Shown here piece by piece: positions 16,689 to 26,890 of a stretch of 32,843 nt of DNA (its first letter is position 1; each line of letters starts with the position of its first letter). Location of the stretch: positions 1-32,843 of the forward strand of contig CAJXRS010000024.1 in assembly GCA_913060555.1 (NCBI GenBank), in the 5' to 3' direction. Both the position numbers and the translations under genes were made by a program. The notes beneath the pieces were generated by a model that did no database searches, had not been told where the DNA came from, and worked only from the letters and a program-made list of their open reading frames with translations. The DNA is from an uncultured Gammaproteobacteria bacterium. Lineage in GTDB: Bacteria; Pseudomonadota; Gammaproteobacteria; Pseudomonadales; Porticoccaceae.

Positions 16689-17354
16689 CTACTGTTCCGG
16701 CGCTGCGCTGTCACCGCCTGCCGCGGCGCGTTTCTCCCGCTCCAGTGCGATCAGGTGGTCGGCGACCGTCAGCATGCCCTCGTGGCCCCCCGCCATGCGT
16801 GCAGTGATCCGGTATTTGCCGTCCACAATCATCTCTGGGGTTCCGGAGATCTGGTAGCTGCGCTGTCGGGCGTCGGCCTGACGTACCGCACTGTTCACAC
16901 CGAATGAGTTGAAGGTCTGGTGGAAGCTGTCCGCGTCCACCCCATGGTCGGCAAAGATCTCGGCGATGGCGTCTTCGCTTGCCAGCCGGTTCTTTTCCAG
17001 ATTCATGGCATCGAACAGGGCTCGGTGCAGTTCGTCGAGCACCCCCAGTGCCTTGGCGGTGTAATAGGCGCGGGCATGCAGTTCCATGGTCGGGTGCCAG
17101 ATCGCGGGGCTGCGGGTCAGGACCACATCGTCGCCGAGTCCCGCTGCCCATTGTTCGAGATGGGGTTCGAAGGTGAAGCAGTGGCCGCAACCGTACCAGA
17201 ACACTTCCGCCACCTCGATTTTCTCGGGGGTTGCGGTGCGCACCGGTGTATCCAGCACCTGGTAGTGCTTGCCGGCTACATACTCGGCGGCGGTGGCTGG
17301 AAGCGCGGCGGCCAGCACCAGGAGGGCGGTGAAAAGGCGGGCGGCTGTTGGCAT
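16689..17354 (-). CDS. dsbA: Thiol:disulfide interchange protein DsbA
   Basis: A 221-residue periplasmic thioredoxin-fold oxidase that introduces disulfides into exported proteins and would be reoxidised by DsbB. A signal peptide ends near residue 22 (ALPATAAEY). The active site is WYGCGHC, C56-G-H-C59, in place of the usual C-P-H-C. The cis-Pro loop reads GTPEMIVDGKY, with Thr before Pro173 where E. coli DsbA has Val. The helical insertion and C-terminal part are of normal length. The ATG at 17352-17354 follows a GGAGA site; the in-frame upstream ATG has no better support. The order cytochrome c4-dsbA, with engB divergent, is conserved in Pseudomonas and relatives. SodC, with a disulfide, and cytochrome c4 nearby are plausible client-type proteins. 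Confidence 0.94.
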   Translation of the reverse strand: MPTAARLFTALLVLAAALPATAAEYVAGKHYQVLDTPVRTATPEKIEVAEVFWYGCGHCFTFEPHLEQWAAGLGDDVVLTRSPAIWHPTMELHARAYYTAKALGVLDELHRALFDAMNLEKNRLASEDAIAEIFADHGVDADSFHQTFNSFGVNSAVRQADARQRSYQISGTPEMIVDGKYRITARMAGGHEGMLTVADHLIALEREKRAAAGGDSAAPEQ

Positions 17355-17444
17355 GGCGTTGAGTCTCCAGGTACGCGGCAAGGGCGGCGGAGTTCGCTGT
17401 GCGCCGCCGCAGGCGGTGGACCGCCGCCGGTGGCGAGAGTTCCT

Positions 17445-18086
17445 TTATTTGAGTCCGGCGATGTAATTGGCGACCGCGGCGATCTCCTGATCGTTCATGC
17501 GTGCGGCCACGCCGCGCATCACGGCATTGTCGTCATTGGTGCGCGCACCCGGCCAGGATTTGTCGTGGGCGCCGTCGCGGAAGGCGTGCAACTGCTTGGC
17601 GATATAGTCGGCGTGTTGACCGCCCAGCGCCGGGTAGCCGGCCGGGGCGTTGCCATTACCCACCGGGGAGTGGCAGCCGGTGCAGGCGGCCACACCGGTT
17701 TCATGGTTTCCGCCGCGGTAGATCTTCTCGCCCAGGGCGAGCGAATTCGGATCCTCCTTGGCACCGGCCCAATGGCGCGGCTGGCGCGCGTAGTAGGCGG
17801 CGAGGTCGGCCAGGTCCTGGTCCGACATGGCGTCCAGTTGCCCGGTCATCTCGGGGATCTGGCGCTGTCCGGATTGAATGTCGCGAAGCTGCTTGAGCAG
17901 ATATTTCTCGCCGATCCCGGCGAGATTGGGAAAGTTGGGCGCGGAGCTGGCACCCTGGGGACCGTGGCAGGCCGCACAGGCAGCGGCCTTGGCCTCTCCG
18001 GCGGAGGCGTCGCCGGCGGCTGCGGGGGTCTGCGCGAAGCCCAGTGAGATCAGGGCGGACAGGCACAGCAGGACTTTTCTGGTCAT
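17445..18086 (-). CDS. Diheme cytochrome c4
   Basis: A 213-residue precursor with a signal peptide ([25 protein letters not shown]). Two class I cytochrome c domains each bind a covalent heme: CAACH (37-41) and CTGCH (135-139). Axial Met candidates are M80 or M87 in domain 1 and the Met residues of [11 protein letters not shown] in domain 2. Cytochrome c4 is a periplasmic electron carrier in gammaproteobacteria, donating to terminal oxidases. The ATG is at 18084-18086. dsbA follows 90 bp downstream, and engB is divergent across a 161-bp shared promoter region. Confidence 0.95.
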
Positions 18087-18108
18087 CTTCAGCTTCGCTC
18101 GATTTGGC

Positions 18109-18150
18109 TACAATGGACGTCCGCGCGACCGCGGGCGGGCCGAATTATAT
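18109..18150. promoter_or_regulatory. Possible divergent promoters of cytochrome c4 and engB
   Basis: The 161-bp gap between the two divergent starts contains TACAAT at 18109-18114 (plus strand) and an AT-rich GAATTATATACC stretch near 18140-18152 that includes TATAAT on the minus strand. Neither has a good -35 partner, so assignment to either gene is tentative. Confidence 0.3.
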
Positions 18151-18247
18151 ACCAATCCCCGCGTGCTCTTGGGTGAGGCTGCGGCCGGTACCCAGCCGAA
18201 TTGTTCCAGGTCAGGCGGCCGCCACGCGCCGCACGGAGAGATGGGTA

Positions 18248-18919
18248 ATGGCCGATTCCAGTGTGGGACACGGGGCGAACCCGGGCCTCCCGGCGAAGTC
18301 AGCGGAACCCGACCCCCGTGCCCGGTTTCGCGCAGTGTGTTTTCTGCGCAGTGCCGCGAGCCTGGCCGACTGCCCGCCCGACAGTGGTGCCGAGGTCGCC
18401 TTTGCCGGCCGCTCCAATGCCGGCAAGTCGAGCGCACTCAATGCCCTGACCGGCCAGGGCAAGCTGGCCCGGACCAGCAAGACGCCCGGCCGCACCCGGC
18501 TGCTGAACTTCTTTGCGTTGACGCCGGAGCGGCGGTTGGTCGACCTGCCGGGTTACGGATACGCTCGTGTTCCCAAGGCACAGAAGGAGGAATGGGACCA
18601 GCACCTGGCCGCCTATCTGCGTGCCAGGCGTTCGCTACGCGGGCTGGTGCTGCTCATGGACATCCGCCACCCGTTGCAGGATTTCGACCGCCATATGCTC
18701 GCCTGGGCCGCGGAATCCGGAGTACCCGTCGAAGTGTTGCTCACCAAGGCCGACAAGCTGAACCGCGGGCCGGCGCAGGCGACCCGGCACGCGGTGCGCC
18801 GCGAACTGGCCGGCCTGGGGATGGATTGGGTCTCGGTAGAGGTCTTTTCCGCCCATTCGGGGCTGGGGGTGGCGGAACTGGCGGCAAGGTTGAGCGAATG
18901 GCTGGCGGCTTCAGGCTGA
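18248..18919 (+). CDS. engB: Ribosome biogenesis GTPase EngB (YihA/YsxC)
   Basis: A 223-residue essential-type GTPase involved in late assembly of the 50S ribosomal subunit. G-motifs are present: G1 GRSNAGKSS (54-62), the G2 region [15 protein letters not shown]3 DLPGYGYA (99-106) and G4 TKADKLNR. The N-terminal ~25 residues are a loose extension. The ATG at 18248 has GGAGAG seven bases upstream; an ATG at 18241 is in another frame. It is divergent from cytochrome c4, as in Pseudomonas. Its last nine bases overlap the end of the convergent histidine kinase gene. Confidence 0.95.
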
Positions 18920-21577
18920 CGCCAGACTGTTGTGCTGGCGCTGGGTGCGGCTCTCCAGGCGCATGCGGATCACCATGGCCGCCGCTCGCTCCCAGTCGGA
19001 GACGCGCACCAGGGAGTGCAACAGCCGGGTCTGCTGTTCCAGTTCTCCCAGTTTGAACACGGCGACGATACCGGCGAGCTGGTGGCAGGCGCCGCGGGCT
19101 CCGTCGAGGTCGCGCTGCGACAGGCTCTGTTCGACGGCGGTGAGCAGGCGATCGATTTCGTCGAAATAGACGTTTCGCGGCAGTTTCGCACTGCTGCCGA
19201 ACCAGCCGGCCGGCGGTAGTCCGCTGCGCCCGGTCAGGGTCAGGAGCACTTCCAGCAGCCGGCGTTCGTCGTAGGGCTTGCTCAGGATCTGCTCGACGCG
19301 GACCAACCCCAGCGCGCGGCCGGCGTCGAGCATCTGGTCGGCGGTCAGCACGATCACCGGTGTGTCTGCGTTGATCTCTCCGGGCCGCTGGATCAGCGCC
19401 AGGGCCTCGACACCTGCTACCTCGGGCATATGGAGATCCATCAGGATCACGTCGAAGCGCCGCTGGCCGCAGATGTCCGCGGCGGTCTGGCCGTCGGACA
19501 CTTCGGTGTACTCGCAACCGGTGCGCTCCAGCAGCGCGCCGAGCAGCATGCGGCTGAAGGCATTGTCCTCGACCACCAGCACCCGGACTCCGGAGAGGTC
19601 GGCGGTTTGCTGATTCCGAGATCCCGCATCGCCGCAGAGGGTGGTTCTGAGCTCTTCGAGGCCAGCGGGTTTGCCCAGCCAGTGGACATGGGAGTGACCG
19701 CGGACCAAGGTCCGGGGGATGGTGTCGTGGAGTGCACTCAGGGGGATCTGCACGGTGATCGGGCAGCGCAGTTCGTCGATCAGGTGGCGCAGGGTCGCAA
19801 TCTGGCGCGCCGGGGGCTCGTCCAGCGACCAGTTGACATTGAGGGCCGCGATCGGCTGGCTGGCGAGGACGTCGATCAGGTCGTCGAAGCTTCCCAGGCC
19901 GCGAACCTCGGTGTAGAGGCGGCTCAGCACCTGGAGCGTGCAGTGGCGACCCAGGTCCTGGGTATCGTAGACCAGTGCGGTGCCCGACAGCGCCGCCGTG
20001 GCATCGACGTCTTCCCGCCACCGGCAGGGCAGGGATACGCGGAATTCGCTGCCCTCGCCGGGGTGGCTGTGCAAACTGAGGGCACCGCCCAGCATTTCGA
20101 TGTGATGTTGGGTGATGGCAAGACCCAGGCCGGTACCGCCAAAGCGCCGGGCGATGCCGGAATCCGCCTGCTGGAACGCCTCGAAGATCTGCTCCTGCTG
20201 GCTGGCGGCAATGCCGATACCGGTGTCGCGGACGCGGATTTCCAGGCGCTGCTCCGCGGTCCGCATGCAGTGCACCAGGACATGGCCGCTGGCGGTGAAC
20301 TTCACCGCATTGCCCACCAGGTTGTTGACGATCTGGCGCAACGCCCGGGCGTCGCCCAAGACGGTGTCCGGCGTGTCGGGCTCGATGTCCAGGTAGATCT
20401 CAACGCCCTTGTCGTGCGCGGCCGGGGCCAGCAGCCGCACCGCGCCCTCCAGGGGATCACGCAGCGCAAAGGTCGTCGGCGGGTTGCGTTGCGGGTCGGT
20501 TTGCAGGCGGGCGAATTCGAGGATGTCGTCGATCAACGCCATCAGCGAGGTGGCCGCCTGATCGATGATATGGCAGTAGCTGCGGTCGGCGGCTTCGGGC
20601 AGCGCGTTTTCGAGCAGGCGCACGAAGCCCTGGATGGAGGTCAGGGGGGTGCGCAGTTCGTGGCTCATGCGCGCCAGAAAGTCGCTCTTGGCGCGGTTGG
20701 CGCTCTCCGCTTTTTCGGTGGCGATTTCCAATTCCCGGTTCTTGCTGCGCAGGGTATCCAGGGTGCGGCGCAGATCACTGGTGGCCTGCTCGACCTGCTG
20801 TTCGAGGTGGCGCTGGCTGCGCTCCACCGACTCGCCGAGGTGATTGATGCCCTCAGCCAGTTGGGCCAGCTCATTACTGGTGGAGGGCCGCGCCCGGGCG
20901 CGGAGATCACCCTGCCGGAGACGGGTGACGGTCTCCGTCAGTCTGTGGATCGGGGTGACCACAACTCGCGACAGCACCAGCGACATCAGCAGGGCGGTGC
21001 CCAGCACGCTGGCGCCGATACCGATACTGCTGACCATGATGGTGTGCTGTGCCTGTTGGGCCTCGGTCAGGTCCAGCGCCACCACGACCCAGCCGAGCGG
21101 CTCGCCGGAGGAGTGGCTGGCGGCGGGCACGGCACCGGGATAGTCCTCCACATCCCAGGCGCGCGGACGAACCTCCCGCTCCAGAAGCAGTGCATTGCCC
21201 ATCCGCACCGATCCCATGCCCAGCGGGTGGCTCAGATCGAAGCCGGGGTCTAGCGCGGGGAATCCGGAACTCACGTGCAGCATGCGGCGCCGGGGGTCGA
21301 GGAAGGTGACGCCCTGGACCCCCGGGACGGTCTGGATGTCGGCCGCGATGTCGGCGAGCATGGAGGGTTCGCGGGCGAAGAAGGCGAAGTCCAGGGTGTC
21401 GGCCAGATAGCCTGCGGTGCGCTCGCCGAAGATTTCGACCCGGTGAAGGATGTCGCCCTGGCGGCTGTAGATGGCGTGCGCGGTGAACAGTACCGTGATC
21501 AGCAGCAGCGGCAGCGCGCCGATCAACAATAGGCGCAGTTGTATGCTGCCGCGCAGCTTCCGGCCGGAGCGGCTCAT
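18911..21577 (-). CDS. Hybrid sensor histidine kinase, BarA/GacS-like
   Basis: An 888-residue inner-membrane kinase. TM1 is about 13-32, a periplasmic sensor region 33-178, TM2 about 180-203, and HAMP about 203-256. A coiled-coil segment follows, then HisKA with phospho-acceptor H306 in MSHELRTP, and HATPase with [10 protein letters not shown] (418 on), DTGIG (451-455) and GGTGLGL (480-486). A receiver-like region at about 530-650 has no phosphorylatable Asp in place. A true receiver follows (E670-D671, phospho-D714 in LMDLHMP, K767), and a C-terminal Hpt domain has H832 in CHQLAG. This His-Asp-His relay needs an external response regulator; none is encoded nearby. The ATG overlaps the stop of the periplasmic binding-protein gene (ATGA), so the two are coupled. 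The likely cue arrives through that protein, which is an inference. Confidence 0.94.
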
Positions 21578-22539
21578 GGCAGGGCCTCCAGGACGGCCTC
21601 GAACCGCGCCCGCAGCGCCTCGTCGTCCGGCAGTTCGATATCCAGGGCCGTGGCGACCGCGGGATTGGTGGCAATGCTGTAAGCATCCGGATATTGCATA
21701 CCCCGCGGATATTCCCCGGTTTTCAGCCAGCGGTCCAGAATGCCGGCGGCTTCGCGACCGATATCTTCCGGAGTGACGAACACCGACGCCAGGGCTCCGG
21801 CATTCGCATAGGCGCGGGAAAAGGCGATCACCGGGGTGCGCGCCCGGAAGCTCAGCTGCAACAGCCAGCGGGCGACCGCGCTGTTGAAGTCGGCGCTGTC
21901 CGGGAGCACCAGTGCGGCATCGGTCGCCTCGACCAGCGGTGACAATGTCGCCAGCGGGTTGGCATCCGCACTCAGGGCACCGACCAGGGGTTCGAAGCCG
22001 GCCTTTTCGGCTTCACCATGCACTTGATTCAGGTGCTTGCCGGAAATCGGGCCCAGCACGATCGCCAGGGTTGTGGCCCGGGGCAGCAGCGCCCGAGTGA
22101 GGGCCACCAGGTGTCGTGGTGGCTGGTCGAACACCAACGCCGGATTTTCGGCCAGGCCGGGATCCCCGGCGCGCTGCTGGAGCCAGGAGTCGCTGGTGAT
22201 GAACAGGTGCAGCGCGACCCGCTGAGGGTGTTCCGCGCGCAACCTCACCATGGCGTCCGAGCCCACGGTGACCAACAGATCTTCGGCTTTCCAGTCGGCT
22301 TTGAGGTCGGTGTCGACCTCGGTCACGACACCGGGGTGCAGGGCCGCCAGATGCTCGCGCAGGCTGGCGACCGCCTGCATGTAATAGGAGTCTTCGCTGG
22401 CGATCAGCACCTGGACGTCGGCGCCCAGCGTCGTGGGTAGATCCCCGGCCAGGGCCAGCGCGCAGACGAGCAGGTGCCGGGACAGTACTGCCCACCGTCG
22501 CCTCGGACGCCGCTCACGCTGGTCTCCCAATGCCCGCAT
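21574..22539 (-). CDS. Periplasmic ABC-type substrate-binding-like protein
   Basis: A 321-residue protein with a basic N-terminus (RERRPRRRW), a hydrophobic segment (HLLVCALALAGDLPTTLGA) and then a two-lobe periplasmic-binding fold. VQVLIASEDSYYMQAVASL, LAIVLGPISGKHLNQ, DAALVLPDSADFNS, TPVIAFSRAYANAGALASVF and IGREAAGILDRWLKTGEYP resemble the ABC_sub_bind (PF04392) family. Members are sometimes transporter components, but many sit beside histidine kinases. No permease or ATPase is adjacent, and the stop codon overlaps the kinase start. A role as ligand receptor for the kinase is therefore more likely than transport. The start used is ATG at 22537-22539; a GTG at 22588-22590 would add 17 residues. 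The ligand is unknown. Confidence 0.85.
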   Translation of the reverse strand: MRALGDQRERRPRRRWAVLSRHLLVCALALAGDLPTTLGADVQVLIASEDSYYMQAVASLREHLAALHPGVVTEVDTDLKADWKAEDLLVTVGSDAMVRLRAEHPQRVALHLFITSDSWLQQRAGDPGLAENPALVFDQPPRHLVALTRALLPRATTLAIVLGPISGKHLNQVHGEAEKAGFEPLVGALSADANPLATLSPLVEATDAALVLPDSADFNSAVARWLLQLSFRARTPVIAFSRAYANAGALASVFVTPEDIGREAAGILDRWLKTGEYPRGMQYPDAYSIATNPAVATALDIELPDDEALRARFEAVLEALP

Positions 22540-22674
22540 TCCCTGCCCTTTGTCGCCGCGCCGAGCGCTTGCCGTCGTCGTGAGCCGCACGGATCGCCGA
22601 TGTATCTGAGCTGCTGCCCGTGTCCCTTGGTTCTGGTCGCCGGGGCGCGCGAACGCGTACCACCCCTGCGCCGA

Positions 22675-24777
22675 TCAATCCGGCAGATCTACCTGCGCGC
22701 GCAGATAAAAAGCCGTTTCAAATCGGTTTTCCCGGTTGAACTCGCGGTAGTCGCCACCCAGATTCTGGGCCACCAGCTGCAACTGGCCGCGGCTTGGACC
22801 GATCTGCAAGCGCCAGGTCACCTGGGCGTCGATCCGGGTAAAGGCTCCGATCTGGTTGCCGTTGCGCCAATCCACGCCGCTTTGATGGTAGACAAAGAAT
22901 CCGGCGTCGAATTGCTCCGACCAGCGATGATTGAACAGCAGGCCACCGGAATGCCTGGGGGTGCCGCCGTCGAAGTCCTTGATTTCTAAGGCGGGTTCGA
23001 ACTGGTTGATGTAGCGGCTGTCCAGATCCTGGTAGGCGTAGTGCAGGCGCGCCCAACTGCGCTCCGAAAGGCGATAGAAGAGCTGTGCCTCGACTCCCGT
23101 GGTATCCCAGGAAGAGGAGTTGTCCCTCACCAGCCGCTCGTCGTCAAAGAAAGGAGGCAGTGCCGGGATGGGCTCCCGATGATCGTCGATACCGTCGCTG
23201 ACCTCTTCGCGAAACAGCTTGATGTCGAAATCGATGCCCTGTTCGGGAAACCGCGCCAGGTAGGCCAGCTCCAGGCTGTCGATGCGCTCGTCGTCGAGAT
23301 CCGCGGTGCGGCGGATATCGTCGGCCACCATACCGCCGAGCAGCGCAAACTGGCGTTCCTCGGCTTCGGAGATCGACGGCGCGCGTCGCCCCCGGGCACC
23401 GCTCAGGCGCAGCGTCTGAGCGGGAAACAGCTCGTAGGCGACGGAGACCCTGGGCGACAACAGGACGCCCACCGAGGTTTTTTCCGCCATGGCGCCGGCC
23501 GAGATCGACCACCGATCGAACGGCAGCCACTCGCTGTGGGCGAACAGCCGGAATCGCTGTTCATCATGGGTGCCGCCATCGCCGGTGAGAAAGACGCTGT
23601 CGATGGCATCCTGCCGGGCGCCGGCGCCGGCGGCCCAGGTCAGCCGTTCGGTCTGCGCTCGATACAGGGCCTCGAGGTCGAAGCGCTCGGATTCTATGGT
23701 GTGAAAGCCGGTCACGAAGCTCTGGTCGGGGATGCCGAACAGGGTCGGGATGGCCACCGGGCCCAGCCCGGTCAGGTCCGATACCAGGCCCAAGTCGCGT
23801 ACCCCGTTGGCGCGCAAATGGTTGCGGTAGAAGGTGATCTCCAGTTCTCGGCCGCTGAACAGCTGATGCTCCCAGGCGACCCGCTGATACTGGCTGTAGT
23901 AGCGCACCGGGATGTATTCGTCCAGCCGGTCGGCGTCCCCGAATTCGGTGTCGTGGCGGGAGAAGCCGGCATCGAAGCTCAAGGTGTCGGCCAGCGTCGG
24001 CGTGAAGGTGGTCCTCAGATTGGCGTTCCAGGTTTCGGCGCCGTCGTCGGGACCAAGGGCGTTGTAGTCCGGGAAGCCGTCATTGTGATCGAAGCCCAGG
24101 GAGAGCCGATAGTCGAAATTGGCAGTCTGGTCGCTGTGGCGCAGCGCCACCCGGCGTGTGCCGCGCTCGCCCGTGGTGGCGCGCACCTGGGTGCCATTGT
24201 CCTGCACCGGCGCGCTGGTGATGATGTTCACCGCGCCGGAGAAGGCATTGGAGCCGTGGGCGGCGGCGCTGGAACCACGCACGATTTCGATGCGGTCGAT
24301 TTCGTCGAGCTCCACACCCAGGGCGCCCCATACCACGGTGGACTGGATGGGGTCGTAGACCGACCGTCCGTCCACCATGACCTCGAGGTGGTTGGGCAGC
24401 TCCCGGCCCTGGCCGTGGTAGGAGATGCCGAAGCGGTTGGCGTTGACCGCATAGGCCTGGAAGCCGGGCACCAACCGAAACACATCCACCCAGTTCATGG
24501 CGCCGGCGGCGCGGATCATGTCCGCGGTGATCACCGTGGTGCTCGCGGGCGCCCGCGCCGCGGTCTGCGGGAAGTGGCTGACGATGCTGAGCTCCGGGAT
24601 GGGGCCCAGCAGATCGGCTTCCGCGAGCCCGAGTGGGTCGCCCGCGGCCTGTGCCGTCGCGGCCAGCGCCAGGGAAGCGCAGACCGCGAATCTGGCGCCG
24701 GGCCGGTGAAGGCCCGGGGAGGTTGCTCGCGAGTGATGATCGGCCACGGTTGGGGGCTCCGGTTGTTGCGGTCGCAT
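22675..24777 (-). CDS. TonB-dependent outer-membrane receptor
   Basis: A 700-residue outer-membrane beta-barrel receptor. A signal peptide (FAVCASLALAATAQAAG) sits after a long basic N-terminus. A possible TonB box, PELSIVSH, precedes the plug domain: STTVITADMIRAAGAMNWVDVFRLVPGF, then VMVDGRSVYDP, then the conserved IDRIEIVRGSSAAAHGSNAFSGAVNIIT. The rest is barrel strands. It ends in QVDLPD, without the usual terminal aromatic residue. The ATG at 24775-24777 has no clear ribosome-binding site; a GTG at 24745-24747 with GGAG nine bases upstream is an alternative that shortens the leader. Family members import iron complexes, cobalamin or other scarce nutrients; the ligand here is unknown. It is first in an operon with the binding-like protein and the kinase. 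Confidence 0.94.
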   Translation of the reverse strand: MRPQQPEPPTVADHHSRATSPGLHRPGARFAVCASLALAATAQAAGDPLGLAEADLLGPIPELSIVSHFPQTAARAPASTTVITADMIRAAGAMNWVDVFRLVPGFQAYAVNANRFGISYHGQGRELPNHLEVMVDGRSVYDPIQSTVVWGALGVELDEIDRIEIVRGSSAAAHGSNAFSGAVNIITSAPVQDNGTQVRATTGERGTRRVALRHSDQTANFDYRLSLGFDHNDGFPDYNALGPDDGAETWNANLRTTFTPTLADTLSFDAGFSRHDTEFGDADRLDEYIPVRYYSQYQRVAWEHQLFSGRELEITFYRNHLRANGVRDLGLVSDLTGLGPVAIPTLFGIPDQSFVTGFHTIESERFDLEALYRAQTERLTWAAGAGARQDAIDSVFLTGDGGTHDEQRFRLFAHSEWLPFDRWSISAGAMAEKTSVGVLLSPRVSVAYELFPAQTLRLSGARGRRAPSISEAEERQFALLGGMVADDIRRTADLDDERIDSLELAYLARFPEQGIDFDIKLFREEVSDGIDDHREPIPALPPFFDDERLVRDNSSSWDTTGVEAQLFYRLSERSWARLHYAYQDLDSRYINQFEPALEIKDFDGGTPRHSGGLLFNHRWSEQFDAGFFVYHQSGVDWRNGNQIGAFTRIDAQVTWRLQIGPSRGQLQLVAQNLGGDYREFNRENRFETAFYLRAQVDLPD

Positions 24778-24832
24778 TGTACCCGGGGCGGTGTTGACTG
24801 CCAGCGTTCGCCTCAGGCGCTGCGCGGCGCGG

Positions 24833-24861
24833 CTGACAGGTCCGGCATCGCTGTGTACCAT
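24833..24861 (+). promoter_or_regulatory. Sigma-70-like promoter of the nine-gene acyl-CoA operon
   Basis: CTGACA at 24833-24838 (5/6 match) and TACCAT at 24856-24861 (4/6 match) are exactly 17 bases apart. Transcription would start near 24868, giving a leader of about 73 nt before the first gene. It lies in the 163-bp gap from the divergent TonB-dependent receptor. Confidence 0.5.
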
Positions 24862-24940
24862 GCCCGGGATAACCCGCAGCCCTCCCGCGATGCTAACGCG
24901 AGGTATCCCGGTGCTGCGGATCGGCCCGCAGGGCAAGCCC

Positions 24941-25642
24941 ATGAGTGAAATCTATTTTGTGCGCCATGGCCAGGCTTCGCTCGGCGCGCGGAACTACGAT
25001 CAGCTTTCTCCGCTCGGCTGGGAGCAGGCGCGCTGGCTGGGCGAACACTACCGTGCGCGCGGTCTCGACTTCGACCGCGTCATCGTGGGCGACATGCAGC
25101 GCCACAAGGAAACCTTGCAGGGCATCGGCGCGGGCATGGGACGCATGTTCGATCCGGTCGTGGACCGACGCCTGAACGAGTTCACATTCCGCCCGGTGAT
25201 GCGCCTGTACTGCCAGCGCTATCGGCCCGAGGTTCCAGAGCCGACCACAGCGGCGGAGTTTTTCGGGATCCTGCGCGAGGTGATGGTGGCCTGGATCGCC
25301 GGCGATCTGGATGCCGAGCTCGCGACGCAGGCCGAGCGCGGCGGGCAGCGCACCGAGACCTGGCGCGAATTCAACGAACGCGTGGTGGCGGGTGTCGAGG
25401 CGGCCCGCGCGGGAAGCCACGGCGAGCGGGTATTGATCGTTTCTTCCGGTGGGCCCAAGTCGCTGACCGTCAAGCATGTCATGGGCCTGTCCGACGACGG
25501 CGCCATCGACCTGATGTTGCAGATTCGCAACACCTCCACCACCCGCTTCTTGAGCGATGGCGACCGCCTGTCGCTGCACGCCTTCAATGCGCTCGCCCAT
25601 ATGGAACGACCCGATCGCGAGCACGCGATCACCATGGTCTAG
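24941..25642 (+). CDS. Histidine-phosphatase-fold protein lacking the second catalytic His
   Basis: A 233-residue cytoplasmic member of the histidine phosphatase (phosphoglycerate mutase-like) superfamily. The nucleophile motif is intact, FVRHGQAS with H9, as are the basic residue of DMQRHKET (R54) and an acid in LNEF (E80). In the second active-site motif, normally V-x-H-G-G, the sequence is VLIVSSGGPKS, with Ser169 in place of His. Either catalysis is altered or the protein binds a phosphorylated ligand without turning it over. It begins an operon with an acyl-CoA dehydrogenase and a small-molecule kinase, so a phosphorylated CoA intermediate is a plausible partner (inference). The ATG at 24941 gives the usual family N-terminus. 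Confidence 0.88.
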   Translation: MSEIYFVRHGQASLGARNYDQLSPLGWEQARWLGEHYRARGLDFDRVIVGDMQRHKETLQGIGAGMGRMFDPVVDRRLNEFTFRPVMRLYCQRYRPEVPEPTTAAEFFGILREVMVAWIAGDLDAELATQAERGGQRTETWREFNERVVAGVEAARAGSHGERVLIVSSGGPKSLTVKHVMGLSDDGAIDLMLQIRNTSTTRFLSDGDRLSLHAFNALAHMERPDREHAITMV

Positions 25643-25681
25643 ATTTTCCGGATCCAATTCCACTGGAGGATGTATCAACCC

Positions 25682-26890
25682 ATGAATTTCGACTATTCGG
25701 ACAAGGCGCGCGACCTACAGTTGCGACTCCAGCAGTTTATGGTGGACGAGGTCTACCCGGTAGAACACGCCTATCAGGAGTACCTCAAGACCGCGGAGAA
25801 TCCCTGGGCCAGCCCGCCGCTCATGGAGGAACTCAAGGCCAAGGCCAGGCAGGCCGGTCTGTGGAACCTGTTCCTGCCCGTTCGTCACCATCCCGACGGG
25901 CTCAGCAACCTCGATTACGCGCCCCTCGCCGAGATCATGGGCCGGGTGCTCTGGGCACCCGAGGTGTTCAACTGCAATGCGCCAGATACCGGCAACATGG
26001 AAGTCTTCATCAAATATGGCACTGATGAGCAGAAGGCGCGCTGGCTGGAGCCCCTGCTGGCCGGGGAGATCCGCTCGGCGTTCGCCATGACCGAACCCGA
26101 CGTGGCGTCCTCGGATGCCACCAATGTGCAGTGTTCCATCGTCCGCGACGGTGACGAGTATGTGATCAACGGTCGCAAGTGGTTCATCACCGGGATCATG
26201 CACGAGAACTGCAAGATCATCATCCTCATGGGCAAGACCGATCCGGACAATCCCAGCCGTCACGTCCAGCAGTCGCAGATCCTGGTGCCGCGCGACACCC
26301 CGGGCGTGAAGGTGACCCGAGCGCTCACCACCCTGGGTTATACCGATCCGCCACTCGGGCACGGCGAAATGGTGTTCGAGAACGTGCGGGTGCCCGTGGC
26401 AAACGTGCTGCTCGGCGAGGGGCGGGGTTTCGAGATCGCCCAGGGCCGCCTGGGCCCGGGGCGCATCCACCACTGCATGCGCCTGATCGGCTGCGCGCAG
26501 CGCGCGCTGGAGCTGATGTGCCAGCGGGTCGAGCGGCGCAGCACCTTCGGCCGCAAGCTCAGCGAGCATCAGTCGGTGCGCGAGGACATCGCCCAGTCCT
26601 TCTGCGACATCGAGCAGGCGCGGTTGCTGACGCTGCGCGCCGCCGAGAAGATCGACCGCGAGGGTACCAAGGAGGCCCGCGACCTGATCGCCGCCATCAA
26701 GATCGTCACGCCGGCCATGGCCCAGCGGGTGATCGACCGGGCCATTCAGGTACACGGCGCCGGCGGCCTGACCGAGGATTATTTCCTCGCCGAGGCCTTC
26801 ACCTATGCCCGCCAGATCCGCTTTGCCGACGGTCCCGATCAGGTGCACATGATGCAGCTGGGCCGCTCGCTGGTGAAACAGTACGCCTGA
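25682..26890 (+). CDS. Acyl-CoA dehydrogenase, ACAD10/11-like
   Basis: A 402-residue FAD enzyme. It has the acyl-CoA dehydrogenase middle domain ([20 protein letters not shown], then [11 protein letters not shown]) and the C-terminal helical domain with [20 protein letters not shown] and [19 protein letters not shown]. The catalytic-base region reads [13 protein letters not shown], the version found in ACAD10/ACAD11 and LvaC-like proteins, not the YEGTAQ of medium-chain enzymes. An APH-like kinase follows 16 bp downstream, and these are the two halves fused in animal ACAD11. The start is ATG 25682 because GGAGG at 25665-25669 abuts the earlier in-frame ATG at 25670. Substrate preference is inferred to include 4-hydroxyacyl or branched acyl-CoAs. 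Confidence 0.93.

Follow-up and report, generated by a model that had tools for sequence, protein, structure and literature searches.

A recurring gene unit of TonB-dependent receptor, substrate-binding protein and GacS/BarA-type kinase: a candidate route for signal delivery

The window, a stretch of 32,843 nucleotides from an uncultured gammaproteobacterium of the family Porticoccaceae (contig CAJXRS010000024.1), encodes three genes one after another on its minus strand: a TonB-dependent receptor (22675-24747); an exported substrate-binding protein (SBP) of PF04392 type (21574-22539); and a hybrid histidine kinase of 888 residues (18911-21577). The recurrence of this gene order in distant genomes is more than chance. 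Moreover, the kinase is GacS/BarA-type, and the SBP belongs to a signaling-linked subgroup found away from ATP-binding cassette (ABC) transport genes. We regard it as probable, if well short of certain, that the unit is a signal-delivery module for a GacS/BarA-type kinase, with the signal running from receptor-imported ligand to SBP, to kinase, and to UvrY.

As we picture it, the receptor would admit a ligand, either scarce or bulky, to the periplasm, where the SBP would capture it and dock on the kinase's single-cache sensor domain, a path into which each of the parts fits. Phosphate would then pass through the kinase's receiver and its Hpt domain to a UvrY/GacA-like regulator encoded away from the unit, and the signal onward to the CsrA system. 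The components of this last step are present in the genome; their connection is presumed.

Conservation of the unit, its binding protein and its receptor

Relatives of the SBP (E<=1e-10) are present in 52 of 274 sampled genomes of the class Gammaproteobacteria, at 54 places. Fifty-four neighborhoods were examined (53 plus the window), of which 51 were mapped; the open reading frame picker dropped three (by locus number L034, SBP with kinase; L058 and L072, SBP with receptor and kinase). (A search of named genomes with a narrower SBP alignment gave 50 loci, 47 of them mapped.) The receptor lies upstream of the SBP and a kinase downstream at 30 of the 51 mapped loci, and at two more a GGDEF-EAL protein takes the downstream position; receptor, SBP, and signaling enzyme thus stand in a row at 32 loci. 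The co-occurrence for which the original prediction proposed a search is found. Elsewhere the unit is partial or rearranged: a kinase downstream with no receptor directly upstream (ten loci, one with a receptor slightly further up); receptor and SBP with no recognized signaling gene (five, one at a contig end, and L084 with a weak kinase match two genes on); a kinase on the opposite side of the SBP (two; in L074 the receptor precedes the kinase); or neither receptor nor signaling gene (two, one at a contig end, and L057 with a HisKA_3-like kinase by Pfam). A four-nucleotide overlap joins SBP and signaling gene at 25 of the 42 mapped class loci with a downstream signaling enzyme. The window shows the same ATGA overlap (21574-21577, minus strand), with the kinase ATG at 21577 and the SBP stop TGA at 21576-21574.

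Tree distances of SBP and receptor run in parallel (r 0.87) across 48 units with receptor, SBP, and histidine kinase (5 of 53 were dropped for an unplaced core or near-identity), which shows joint inheritance, not contact. Three long frames (L037, L058, L081), considered as SBP-kinase fusions that would prove contact, were judged to be overlapping reading frames.

Many units have a divergent cysM-like/rlmD group on one side and a convergent pdxJ-recO-era-like group on the other (apart from rlmD, we take these names from the sequences), and several solo BarA genes sit in this place too. Receptor and SBP therefore appear to have been inserted or lost at one ancestral locus. Within the window's own family, the unit is flanked at 8 to 11 loci (L157-L170) by what we take to be a pyridoxamine-phosphate-oxidase-like gene (divergent) and serA/serC-like genes (convergent). 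At L043 and L064, receptor-SBP pairs without a kinase are followed by TrmO and fabA/fabB-like genes, as beside PA1611-type units; these loci may have lost their kinase. At L035, L044, L051, and L057, SBP-kinase pairs have a NarL-type regulator in the receptor's usual place, so some lineages can do without the receptor.

The SBP matches PF04392 at 35 bits (cutoff 25.9) and falls far short of the TrpX model NF041285 (26 bits, cutoff 390). Its AlphaFold2 model (predicted local distance difference test, pLDDT, 90.8) lies nearest, at moderate template-modeling (TM) scores, to the solved folds 3LFT (L-tryptophan bound), 3LKV, and 6HNI/6HNJ (CD0873), and then to LuxP. Seven residues mark the subgroup: G93, D138, Q139, P213, N219, S241, and A247 each occur in 72-97% of 121 signaling-linked SBPs and in none of nine transport SBPs. 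The window's SBP carries all seven (at position 143 it has H where R is usual).

A recognized ABC ATPase or polytopic permease-like gene lies near the SBP at none of the 51 mapped class loci, window included; ATPases were recognized by Walker A and LSGG words and permeases by a hydrophobicity count, which divergent ones could escape. The original prediction would have been undone by a permease or ATPase as the usual neighbor in relatives, and that is not what these loci hold. A second set of 60 loci (L157-L216; a selection of 20 of 33 and 40 of 81 places, not a random draw) tells the same story by score. Where the SBP profile reached at least 100 bits, a permease-ATPase pair was found at 0 of 42 loci, and 38 of these have an adjacent kinase or GGDEF-EAL gene recognized. 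Among the 18 lower-scoring loci nine have the pair, all plain SBP-permease-ATPase operons (L192-L195, L210, L211, L213, L215, and L216), so the ABC test does recognize real transport operons.

The receptor has a Pfam Plug domain (59.6 bits) and TonB_dep_Rec barrel (80.9 bits), and is 23-38% identical to 32 receptors from related loci. Its best NCBIfam match is NF053590, the family of the TOL_0244/OmpS receptors, at 168 bits, below the cutoff of 645. Ten other unit receptors that were scanned share this best match, and all 11 score 168-247 bits. TOL_0244/OmpS receptors are linked with alkane uptake in the accessible part of one report (PMC6304351). Given the distance from the cutoff, however, that ligand is not transferable to the unit receptors, and alkane sensing was rejected as an assignment. 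A literature search on the genes adjoining OmpS (B5T_01486, B5T_01487) found no paper. Two TonB-dependent receptors stand in tandem ahead of the SBP at L166, L172, and L076.

No FecA-type signaling extension is present: Pfam finds just Plug and barrel in the receptor. Likewise, neither FecR nor a sigma factor occurs among the four flanking genes scanned. The original prediction was right that FecR/FecI-type signaling is absent here, and wrong to treat it as the only known form of receptor signaling. TonB-dependent receptors paired with two-component systems are known, namely PfeSR and PirSR.

Kinase, regulator and exchanged outputs

The kinase domains follow in the order of E. coli BarA (all on the minus strand; by Pfam unless noted): HAMP (20822-20977), HisKA (20498-20692), HATPase_c (20027-20356), a receiver (Response_reg, 19247-19582), and an Hpt-like domain (18977-19174) that scores 24.5 bits, just under the cutoff of 24.6. 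The protein extends 103 residues beyond the receiver, and 103-112 residues in 13 family relatives. Ahead of HAMP lies the periplasmic sensor domain (about residues 33-178; 21044-21481), modeled by AlphaFold2 (pLDDT 86.3) as a PDC/single-cache fold resembling CitA, DctB, and LuxQ (VIA-align). A profile of the unit sensors, window included, matches 5O7J (E 3e-12), the GacS periplasmic domain (PMC5595915). The first 255 residues of E. coli BarA align end to end with that profile (hhalign 99.8%), and an sCache_4 match is above cutoff in all four family relatives scanned and present in 26 of the 28 sequences of the alignment.

Phylogeny agrees. In a tree of 105 rows, the window kinase stands with 54 other unit kinases, the unit kinase L072, E. 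coli BarA, and 21 other solo genes (support 95 in the Shimodaira-Hasegawa-like approximate likelihood ratio test, SH-aLRT). The far side holds ArcB, 11 of 11 other hybrids, the PA1611-type kinases, and the solo gene L275. Inner branches are weak; 31 of 158 kinase frames without a full core and ten more duplicates were excluded, and 12 of the remaining 117 rows were dropped beforehand as long-branched or redundant.

Kinase and SBP were also compared from the kinase side. Fifty-seven genomes have a listed match to the BarA model (NF008318) that starts within its first 40 positions; matches down to about 437 bits were listed, with three candidates scored per genome. Among the matches listed, an SBP adjoins the kinase in 34 of the 57 genomes (32 via the E<=1e-10 SBP search, two via a wider profile). 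Of the other 23, 22 were inspected (G139 was not fetched); one of them, L277, has a receptor and no recognized SBP ahead of a kinase fused to GGDEF-EAL. The equivalog cutoff of 890 bits is passed by just three of the 274 class genomes; L075, an SBP-kinase pair with no receptor detected, scores 908.

Where, then, is the response regulator? UvrY/GacA genes are normally unlinked from the GacS/BarA kinase gene; in E. coli, uvrY adjoins uvrC, far from barA. A GacS/BarA-type kinase therefore explains the absent adjacent regulator, a point that the original prediction missed; its unit of receptor, SBP, and signaling enzyme without a permease is supported as a conserved one. The window's own genome (97.96% complete) encodes, by a gene directly before uvrC, a UvrY-like protein that shares 42% identity with UvrY of E. 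coli, and also CsrA, above its cutoff. It has two BarA-model kinases at E<=1e-30, both within receptor-SBP units.

Across 25 genomes of the window's family, UvrY is found in all 14 that have a regulator-less unit and in two of the other 11 (Fisher p 2.7e-5, raw counts; counting the weaker match of G296, E 1.4e-32, three of 11, p 1.5e-4). The search for UvrY at E<=1e-20 came up empty in G281, G286, and G292, the three family genomes whose unit is accompanied by a NarL-type regulator. Such regulators adjoin units L033, L035, L044, L051, L080, and L082, among others (by Pfam for the first four), and occur in the window's own family and order at L167, L171, L172, and L173.

In other lineages the output is exchanged. 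At L042, L061, Methylotenera, and related loci, a GGDEF-EAL protein is encoded in third place, so that receptor, SBP, and sensor are, by gene order, putatively coupled to a GGDEF-EAL output. The GGDEF-EAL proteins of L042, L061, and L113 begin with sCache_4 and HAMP, as the kinases do. That the sensor is kept while the output is exchanged is the strongest indirect sign of communication between the SBP and that sensor. In Methylotenera and relatives (L102-L124) this variant lies between what we take to be ruvC-ruvA-like and ruvB-tolQRA-like genes, at 13-14 loci. (Because some contigs appear both among L086-L135 and among L032-L085, neighbor counts by locus number include some loci twice.)

A second unit in the window's own genome (L085:3405-14330, G000:C2) comprises a gene resembling a thiamine diphosphate (ThDP) enzyme, two small genes, a receptor, an SBP, and a frame of 1522 residues. 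The latter has the order HisKA-HATPase-REC-Hpt-REC-GGDEF-EAL, a phosphorelay and a cyclic di-GMP (c-di-GMP) output in one protein. One of the small genes has a citrate-synthase match just under cutoff, and the ThDP-enzyme-like gene is named by likeness to L202. L197, L200, L201, and L202, from four genomes of a different class within the phylum, carry a ThDP enzyme and two citrate-synthase-like halves (assigned by Pfam in L202) between receptor and SBP, all on one strand, a hint that this branch may have a metabolite as its ligand.

The locus and its rival explanations

Open reading frames and Pfam agree with the original prediction on three co-oriented genes on one strand and on the ATGA overlap, and the neighborhood census marks neither a permease nor an ATPase nor a response regulator close to the window's unit, again as predicted. 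The receptor gene begins at GTG 24747 or ATG 24777. Its stop is followed, after about 135 nucleotides, by the SBP start if that is ATG 22539, or after 84 if it is GTG 22590; ATG 22539, with a purine-rich stretch just ahead of it, is probably the start. Within 17000-26000 nothing terminator-like was found, and the sole promoter-like site on the unit's strand (24804-24776) lies at the receptor start. This site counts as weak, since two were seen on both strands and 0.7 are expected in shuffles. The three genes are presumably co-transcribed in this genome. In a Pfam scan the flanking genes encode a GTPase and a cytochrome c downstream, and a histidine phosphatase and an acyl-CoA dehydrogenase upstream; all four are unrelated to the unit.

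Several results weigh against a signal-delivery module for GacS/BarA. The window kinase reaches 460 bits with its best NCBIfam model, BarA, where the equivalog cutoff is 890, and the UvrY-like protein 233 bits, where the cutoff is 280. The window's unit is not at the cysM-rlmD/pdxJ-recO-era locus and has different flanks, and most of the units that form the sister group of the window's kinase family come with a NarL-type regulator of their own (SH-aLRT 98). We accordingly class the kinase as GacS/BarA-type and not as a BarA equivalog. Taken alone, the window kinase gives no sCache_4 match by Pfam. Nine unit kinases fall on the far side of the tree (L034, L047, L049, L056, L062, L063, L065, L174, L278), as do the PA1611-type ones, which means that such units do not all serve a GacS. 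A search of the genome with RF00018, the one Rsm/Csr RNA family used, gave no CsrB-type RNA at E<=10. The UvrY pattern of 14 of 14 is uncorrected for relatedness, and one of its loci (L168) is cut off by a contig end at the receptor. A receptor is missing beside SBP and kinase at nine mapped class loci, and a recognized signaling gene beside receptor and SBP at five. Finally, distance matrices do not favor the sensor over the kinase core as the SBP's partner: the SBP correlates with the sensor given the core at 0.55 and with the core given the sensor at 0.51 (both p 0.001). These values show joint inheritance only, and the matrices were set aside as a test of specific SBP-sensor coevolution.

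The sister group, with its support of 98, and the NarL-type regulators beside units of several relatives, some in the window's own family and order, suggest another course: the kinase could be a dedicated two-component sensor, a cousin of GacS and not the genome's GacS, whose native NarL-type partner was lost or moved here. This is rather unlikely. The 14 genomes with a regulator-less unit have UvrY, whereas the three with a regulator at the unit lack a match, and the window's genome has no BarA-model kinase at E<=1e-30 outside such units. It is improbable, on another count, that the kinase mainly controls receptor expression by substrate, as PfeS/PfeR controls expression of the receptor PfeA. 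That the receptor gene comes first in the unit, and in tandem at three loci, fits such an autoregulatory uptake loop, which could also accompany signal delivery to GacS/BarA; however, GacS/BarA-type kinases and UvrY/GacA are global regulators, and an SBP would be superfluous in a Pfe-like loop.

Very improbable, in our view, is plain uptake, with receptor and SBP importing a substrate via an unlinked permease while the kinase, a neighbor by coincidence, senses something else. PF04392-related proteins do serve as ABC components elsewhere, as the nine transport operons attest. However, the subgroup's 51 loci offer no recognized permease or ATPase, its residues differ sharply from the transport type, and its overlap with the signaling gene is frequent. 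Moreover, the two PF04392 proteins found in the window's genome both sit inside receptor-SBP-signaling units.

Known systems and meaning

The closest known system is the GacS/BarA-UvrY/GacA-CsrA/RsmA pathway, with which the window's genome shares kinase architecture, sensor fold family, an unlinked UvrY-like gene by uvrC, and CsrA. E. coli barA differs in having no adjacent SBP or receptor; its neighbor is rlmD. In Pseudomonas aeruginosa, PA1612-PA1611 resembles loci L179-L181 and L185-L187 of Pseudomonas-like genomes, which have a receptor, an SBP, and a hybrid kinase, followed by a fabB-type gene. The literature gives the order as PA1612-PA1611-fabAB, and reverse-transcription PCR and fusions, as described in the accessible part of that report, suggest that fabA shares a transcript with the PA1612-PA1611 operon (PMC3462791). 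From the matching neighbor genes, these loci would carry the PA1611 orthologue. PA1611 counts among the kinases of the GacS network (PMC4866733; PMC8175716) and is placed in a wider "GacS cluster" (PMC8175716), again going by the accessible parts of these sources. PA1611-type loci differ, however, in a kinase without Hpt extension (5-8 residues after the receiver, four loci) and on the opposite side of the tree from BarA.

Periplasmic binding proteins work with hybrid kinases in LuxP/LuxQ and TorT/TorS (E. coli torT adjoins torS). With LuxP among the fold matches of the SBP and LuxQ among those of the sensor, a LuxP/LuxQ-like logic stays plausible on the models. To our knowledge, an outer-membrane receptor is part of neither system. 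NspS/MbaA pairs a binding protein with a GGDEF-EAL protein, like the GGDEF-EAL variants of the unit; we know of no TonB receptor in it, and its SBP family, as far as we know, differs from the PF04392 type. Our literature search, through sources accessible in part, found no description of a receptor-SBP-kinase unit, which is not proof of absence.

GacS/BarA governs lifestyle switches across Gammaproteobacteria via CsrA/RsmA. The ligands of the GacS sensor are stated to be still unknown in the accessible part of a 2020 review (PMC7695008), so the unit offers a direct test; the word TonB has no occurrence in the text of that review. A bolder proposal, which we hold only tentatively, is that a dedicated SBP, loaded through the receptor, delivers the elusive GacS/BarA signal. 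The unit would then be the older state; the solo GacS/BarA of Pseudomonas and enterics would be reduced, having lost receptor and SBP; and the input would have been rewired to c-di-GMP enzymes elsewhere.

The presence of the unit in many distant bacteria suggests a route by which the signal of a GacS/BarA-type kinase may arrive. A linked, co-inherited SBP and outer-membrane port provide a purifiable protein for ligand screening, and receptor or SBP knock-outs could be scored with small RNA or CsrA reporters. If the unit does deliver the signal, these bacteria would sense through three layers, the outer membrane first and the cytoplasm last, and could exchange one output, phosphorelay or c-di-GMP, for the other.

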